DNA from: a virus
Direction: 5' to 3' (one strand)
Length of the DNA stretch: 54,440 nt
Virus record (IMG/VR): IMGVR_UViG_3300022602_000130
Location: 1-54,440 of that record
The notes below the pieces were generated by a model. That model was given only the letters and a program-made list of their open reading frames with translations, was not told the origin of the DNA and ran no database searches. A program made the position numbers and the translations under genes. Each line of letters begins with the position of its first letter. The first letter of the stretch is position 1. Shown piece by piece: positions 32,595 through 32,870 of this stretch.

Positions 32595-32870
32595 GGCGGG
32601 CAAGACGAGGCTTCGACTGCCTCCTGGTCCACCATAGATACATTGGTTTCCATAGTCGGAACAAATATGGTGTAATAGGTTTTTCCGAACACCCAATGTA
32701 TCTTTGATGGGCCAGCAAGGGATCGATTGACGTTGAAAGGGTTGAAGTAGATAGTAGGTTGGTTGCTTTATAGACCAAAAAAGTAAATGCAGCGAATGAT
32801 AACGCTTCATTTGAAATGCGCCTAGCGGCGTAATTCATTGGGTGGGCAACCAGCCTAGAAACAGAAATGG
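32595..32870 (+). ncRNA. ssrA: Circularly permuted (two-piece) tmRNA
   Basis: The acceptor piece comes first: T-arm GAGGC-TTCGACT-GCCTC (32607-32623), acceptor strand CTGGTCC and ACCA (32624-32634). An intervening loop is closed by a 10-bp stem (32637-32646 with 32693-32702). The coding piece starts with GGGCCAG (32709-32715), which pairs with CTGGTCC over 7 bp including a G3-U70 wobble, the alanine identity signal. The tag frame starts at GCA 32789 and ends at TAA 32831-32833, encoding AANDNASFEMRLAA. The ANDN start and LAA end fit ClpX-recognised tags. The mature RNA would rescue stalled ribosomes. The outer ends are approximate. Confidence 0.93.

Follow-up and report, generated by a model that had tools for sequence, protein, structure and literature searches.

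The sequence analyzed here, hereafter called the window, is the whole of the IMG/VR virus record IMGVR_UViG_3300022602_000130, a linear fragment of 54,440 bases with 36.9% GC. It contains a complete gene for a circularly permuted tmRNA at about 32572-32870 on the plus strand, the parts of which are collected in table 1. The acceptor half precedes the coding half and the two are joined by a 7-bp acceptor stem, whose strands lie exactly where a preliminary description of this DNA had placed them. The alanine identity pair G3-U70, recognized in the same description, is present together with an encoded ACCA, and a tag frame runs from a resume codon to a stop codon. The T-loop TTCGACT is uninterrupted and thus does not carry the group I intron that may occupy this loop; a search of the window with Rfam likewise returned no group I intron. 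The endonuclease VII/HNH-like gene that starts inside the 3' end of the tmRNA has no match at this place in the related tmRNA loci compared.

Table 1. Features of the permuted tmRNA locus and of the chaperone-adaptor gene pair in the window.
Feature	Position	Strand	Basis
Promoter: TTGACA (32537-32542), 17-nt spacer ending in TGC, TATAAATA (32560-32567)	32537-32567	+	sequence
Acceptor (3') half of tRNA-like domain	32572-32634	+	RF04321 alignment; pairing, covariation
T-arm GAGGC-TTCGACT-GCCTC	32607-32623	+	RF04321 alignment
Acceptor 3' strand CTGGTCC	32624-32630	+	pairs 7/7 with 32709-32715
Discriminator A and encoded CCA (ACCA)	32631-32634	+	sequence
Intervening sequence (IVS), 74 nt, expected to be removed	32635-32708	+	fold, stem conservation, exchange
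Coding (5') half, with D-loop-like segment, mRNA-like domain and conserved 3' region (3' end approximate)	32709-32870	+	RF04321 to 32833, RF01849 to 32875
Acceptor 5' strand GGGCCAG	32709-32715	+	pairs with CTGGTCC 32624-32630
Tag frame AANDNASFEMRLAA with stop TAA (32831-32833)	32789-32833	+	translation from GCA 32789
Endonuclease VII/HNH-like gene, start inside tmRNA 3' end	32867-33349	+	PHROG 1035, E 4e-13
Hsp20 chaperone	42989-43429	+	adjoins ClpS; pair kept together in related phages
ClpS adaptor	43485-43811	+	PF02617, 83.7 bits; adjoins Hsp20 gene

The Rfam model for permuted tmRNA (RF04321, tmRNA_permuted) matches positions 32572-32833 (+) over its full length with 82.6 bits (E 2.2e-14), well over its gathering score of 47, and this bears out the earlier claim of a complete permuted gene. 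The older alpha_tmRNA model (RF01849), which the preliminary description had named for a check, extends over 32533-32875 but gives 40.2 bits, under its cut-off of 50; in several related phages the same model attains 88-136 bits. On every feature that can be tested, the window gene is therefore best described from its sequence as a member of the permuted tmRNA family, and the label alpha_tmRNA is unwarranted by score. An alphaproteobacterial type, as proposed earlier, is plausible but unproven, given the low RF01849 score and the presence of betaproteobacterial-like tags in related phages. ARAGORN, run on the window, reported no tmRNA at the 32572-32870 locus.

The tag consists of 14 codons and ends in RLAA. 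Its start had been read as ANDN, a motif which is indeed present but is preceded by an additional Ala codon, while the LAA end, of the type recognized by ClpX, is as previously described and recurs in 48 of 57 distinct tags of related phages. All 57 end in AA or VA, an ending that the scan itself demanded, and the tag endings of unselected related copies agree with it. Phage tags diverge in sequence while their frame stays open and their end keeps the form of a protease signal. None of the few cellular tags compared is identical to that of the window, so the tag does not assign a host. Unusually long tags of 29-30 residues (ANDNVSNVFSFV...NEDYALAA) are found in the marine phage tmRNAs L125, L128, L130, L155, L167 and L176. 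Tags resembling those of betaproteobacteria (ANDEQFALAA, ANDENFALAA, ANDETFALAA and others) occur in the phage tmRNAs L118/L119, L202, L219, L225, L207 and L246, hinting at betaproteobacterial hosts for some of these relatives.

The promoter that the preliminary description attributed to the gene is supported by its retention in other phages. The pattern TTGAC-N16..21-TATAAN lies ahead of 40 of 73 unique phage permuted-tmRNA genes, where shuffled sequences would give 0.21, and TATAAATA is found upstream of 45 of the same 73 (1.86 expected), a set of upstream regions that includes related copies. A generic sigma-70 scan had no match at 32537-32567 because the -10 element reads TATAAA. Since TATAAAT is also the T4-type late-promoter box (PMC9004378), late expression of the window tmRNA may be possible.

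The window is a piece of the genome of a jumbo-phage relative: its DnaB-like helicase is 54% identical to that of jumbo phage PA5oct and 50% identical to that of Agrobacterium phage Atu_ph07. When whole related records were searched with RF04321, 23 of 50 gave a match over the cut-off, and Sinorhizobium phage Phosso and record G055 followed from a second batch, which brings the total to about 25 and supports the phage origin of the gene. Near-duplicates among these records were reduced to 21 distinct copies for counting. All cells of the acceptor stem are paired in 21/21 copies, and single positions show as many as four types of pair; since a paired acceptor is already favoured by the covariance model, the pairing count is partly dependent on it, and the number of pair types is independent. 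G3-U70 is invariant in all 21. A gene found in about 25 related records with complete acceptor pairing and covariation is not a chance resemblance.

In the clade of the window, the tmRNA gene is flanked by genes for a gp5-like baseplate lysozyme and a cell-wall hydrolase, the downstream order being cell-wall hydrolase, lipase and, further on, GuaB, Hsp20 and ClpS. This constancy bears on the idea that the gene is a relic, either a disused host gene acquired by accident or the remnant of an integration site. Integration often takes place at tmRNA genes, and the window gene resembles host types, as such an origin would predict; yet both halves, the tag and the promoter are intact, the stems covary, about 25 records have kept the gene, within the clade at one and the same locus, and there is no integrase among the window proteins scanned. 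We consider a relic very improbable. The suggestion of active use made in the preliminary description is instead favoured on comparative grounds, namely one locus in the clade, covarying stems, open tags mostly ending in LAA and a conserved promoter.

No SmpB gene was found in any of the 23 phage records searched, so that SmpB would have to be supplied by the host. The same fact could be taken to favour an inhibitor of host trans-translation, in which the phage RNA would bind SmpB or ribosomes in competition with host tmRNA. A decoy would have no need of a tag, however, and the window tag frame is intact, the protease-signal end is kept in relatives and G3-U70 does not vary, which makes this role unlikely. 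The gene very probably gives a functional tmRNA, with SmpB, alanyl-tRNA synthetase (AlaRS) and Clp proteases supplied by the host. For the region as a whole, we put at about 0.8 the probability that this phage gene encodes a working two-piece tmRNA and has an exchangeable linker.

On the basis of established tmRNA biology, from which the RNase P, AlaRS, SmpB and Clp steps are taken, such a gene would work as follows. The transcript would fold as one long hairpin formed by the acceptor stem and the IVS; host RNase P would cleave before G32709 and 3'-end nucleases after the CCA at 32634, leaving two pieces joined via the acceptor stem and further pairing beyond it. The RNA would then be charged with alanine by host AlaRS and delivered by host SmpB to ribosomes stalled in infection, where the stalled peptide would gain Ala plus AANDNASFEMRLAA and pass to host ClpXP or ClpAP. 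The IVS would be dropped from the tmRNA, yet its site would serve to carry and swap a structured RNA module, the place of which is taken by a small gene in other phages.

The window phage encodes its own ClpS adaptor (PF02617, 83.7 bits), and ClpS is additionally present in PA5oct, Atu_ph07, Phosso and SCTP-2. A dedicated partnership between tmRNA and ClpS is ruled out, since PA5oct, Atu_ph07 and SCTP-2 have ClpS with no detected permuted tmRNA. Elsewhere the window contains a pair of DNA polymerase III-like ORFs that are separate and lie one on each strand (5406-5966, plus, and 9585-11288, minus), which suggests a split polymerase gene, two radical SAM domain genes side by side (11368-13526, plus), an IMP dehydrogenase/GMP reductase-like gene (41270-42373, plus) and a Nol-like carbamoyltransferase gene (48730-50193, plus).

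The stretch between the CCA and the 5' acceptor strand of a permuted tmRNA, or IVS, is missing from the mature RNA (PMC11915505). Its cellular median is 29 nt (n = 19 copies), with values of 10 to 47 nt plus one of 241 nt that resembles a scanner artefact, and a complete cellular gene match spans 216 nt at the median (137 matches), compared with 262 nt for the window. The related jumbo-phage records, whose choice did not depend on the IVS, show IVS lengths from 27 to 410 nt; the median of 82 nt in a larger set, obtained by scanning for the stem motif, is biased to long stems. The preliminary description had treated the linker as a loop closed by a stem of 10 bp. The closing stem exists but measures 11 bp (32636-32646 with 32693-32703), and it encloses a structured interior, the exchangeable nature of which, the most surprising trait of the gene, had been overlooked. 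Phage IVS have a conserved base, CCA-UAGAUACA...UGUAUCUUUGAU-GGG, with a UAAACACA variant in marine phages. In 204 of 231 cells the two strands of this basal stem still pair; when the 3' strands were permuted between copies 500 times, the count never exceeded 184.

We considered the IVS motif as a host feature and rejected it. A scan for TGTATCTTTGATGGGSC across 84,980 species, each represented by a single genome, gave 13 hits, one of which lies in a tmRNA; this sole case is on a 17.9-kb contig of a metagenome-assembled genome and its IVS matches that of viral locus L226, so that the contig is probably viral.

Comparison of IVS interiors with the tmRNA bodies around them reveals discordant relationships. 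Between the window and L115, identity amounts to 91% in the IVS but to 64% in the tmRNA body, and each of the two has its own tag and acceptor stem; similarly, L256 and L273 have 99% identity in the IVS and 69% in the bodies. Conversely, the window gene (L001) and L136 have in common the body around the IVS (0.92 to 1.00) but have different IVS, whereas L124 and L136 have a common IVS (0.97) within differing bodies (0.62 to 0.76). IVS interiors thus recombine independently of the tmRNA body, and the occurrence of the same modules in separate metagenomes argues against assembly chimeras. Clustering of the interiors by local matches of at least 30 nt produced about twenty module families with at least two members; a threshold of 60% global identity had lumped almost all interiors together and was dropped. 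Compensatory changes are found inside several modules, for example in the pairs L129/L248 and L270/L250, even if the module structures are provisional because the families are small (two to five distinct members). IVS-type hairpins are also present just upstream of the permuted tmRNA in L248, one of them homologous to the IVS of L207, L219, L225 and L246.

Hairpins with the IVS base A(C/T)CA-TAG...CTTTGAT lie close upstream of the permuted tmRNA in L248 (2794-3575), L287, L332, L347, L351 and L383, in tandem in L248 and L351. The 298-nt IVS of L233 has apparent tandem hairpins, the second at 6717-6803, and one is flanked by its own acceptor-like complementary strands. A different arrangement is seen in tRNA-rich phages, which contain permuted tRNA-like genes devoid of a tag (L294 1086-1178, L299 3909-4001, L312 2979-3073, with further copies on the minus strand in L323 10372-10479 and L316 2674-2797). 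Their layout comprises a T-arm, ACTCCCC-ACCA, a tmRNA-type IVS hairpin, GGGGAGT and a D-arm-like hairpin, with outer strands AGAATGTTT/AAACATTCT, a G3-C70 pair and no recognizable anticodon.

Small ORFs of 47 to 75 codons are found inside the IVS of marine relatives. Loci with small IVS ORFs are L125, L130, L166, L169, L172, L175, L306 and L387, those of L306 and L387 on the basis of a simple scanner only. In a simple Nei-Gojobori count, two homologous pairs from different phages have dN/dS ratios of 0.19 and 0.14, and a third pair, with few changes, gives 0.66. The homologous pairs with ratios below 0.2 are L166/L175 and L172/L175. These two pairs show the signature of purifying selection, although the ORF of the second pair extends into the tmRNA coding half, so that its ratio is partly shaped by the RNA. 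The window IVS has no small ORF of this kind, and searches with two of the ORFs found no homologues in isolated phages.

One view of these interiors is that the IVS is a neutral spacer, of which the basal stem alone would matter for folding or processing, the interiors being tolerated passengers that recombine through conserved flanks. IVS of 27-35 nt in some related phages, and of about 29 nt in cells, indicate that a long interior is not required, and conserved flanks would favour recombination; the compensatory changes within modules and the purifying selection on two ORF pairs are at odds with it, and we hold it at clearly less than even odds. The other view, put forward tentatively, is that the linker of phage two-piece tmRNA may be a cargo site, with a conserved hairpin base bearing interchangeable structured RNAs or small protein genes. 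By means of tRNA-processing enzymes, the tmRNA transcript would also release the module as a small protein or as a separate small RNA, the latter perhaps with an anti-defence or regulatory role. Conserved cores and compensatory changes within module families, modules common to different tmRNA bodies and to hairpins beside tmRNA genes (as in L248) and the low dN/dS ratios of the marine-phage ORFs are consistent with such a role, against which stand the small size of the families and the fact that Rfam recognizes none of the modules. We regard the two views as about equally likely; they bear on the IVS alone, and the tmRNA reading is in competition with neither. A role of the IVS as a folding or processing aid is among the remaining possibilities. 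Two specific identities for the interior were tried and rejected, that of an embedded tRNA (ARAGORN found none by default, its permissive hits were at background level and no Rfam tRNA lay in the loops) and that of a known ribozyme or riboswitch (no Rfam match).

Phage-encoded two-piece tmRNA is already published, and the window gene adds one more. In a 2022 survey, the two-piece form accounts for 53 of 133 unique phage tmRNA structures (PMC9004378), and a 2025 tmRNA database has 79 bacteriophage sequences of all forms (PMC11915505). The experimental case is the Caulobacter two-piece tmRNA (Keiler 2000, cited in PMC9004378). In common with this type and with RF04321/RF01849, the window gene has the same order of halves, G3-U70, encoded CCA, T-arm and A(A)NDN...LAA tag; unlike the RF01849/Caulobacter type, it falls below the alpha-model cut-off, has an extra Ala codon in the tag and, in place of a short hairpin, a 74-nt IVS with an exchangeable module. 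The methylophage Melnitz and other marine or aquatic phages resemble the window in having a complete permuted ssrA with its own promoter in a lytic-type phage, smpB not being reported as needed, and Melnitz belongs to a different lineage (PMC9004378). With ssrA, the accessible text describes a glutamine riboswitch but not exchangeable IVS modules or IVS ORFs (PMC9004378).

The jumbo phages AP-J-162 and Phosso are relatives of the same broad group as the window. For AP-J-162, a Sinorhizobium phage, one tmRNA is reported, its form being unstated in the accessible text (PMC11242549). The isolated Sinorhizobium phage Phosso contains an unannotated permuted tmRNA (L143; PV764938.1, 349596-350198, minus strand). 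Like the window it has the permuted form, its copy lying near a PAAR gene, but it differs in its tag (ANDNVSTKVALAA) and in its 410-nt IVS. This long IVS holds complements of both acceptor strands, with which the precursor could form two alternative hairpins.

Mycobacteriophage DS6A carries another phage-encoded tmRNA derivative, a tag-less tRNA-like RNA suggested to be a competitor of host tmRNA (PMC4131195); it is not permuted as far as reported, whereas the window tag is intact. Extra sequence within the IVS has cellular precedents in two permuted tmRNAs, one with a tRNA-Ala gene and one with a repeat element (PMC11915505), but these are single cases and the phage modules form a recurrent set exchanged among phages. 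In the open-access literature we found no account of phages with exchangeable IVS modules or with protein genes in the IVS, and the exchangeable IVS is thus the new aspect of tmRNA genes of the window type.

For annotation, these results carry a warning, since ARAGORN missed the window copy and the gene of Phosso is unannotated. A clade that keeps the tmRNA at one locus, together with an isolate, Phosso, that grows on the tractable Sinorhizobium meliloti, makes the use of tmRNA by phages testable. With the exchangeable IVS comes a further question: does the spacer that a permuted RNA gene discards serve as a product in its own right? If the linker is a cargo site, one transcript would yield, by way of host tRNA-processing enzymes, a ribosome-rescue RNA and a second, fast-evolving effector.
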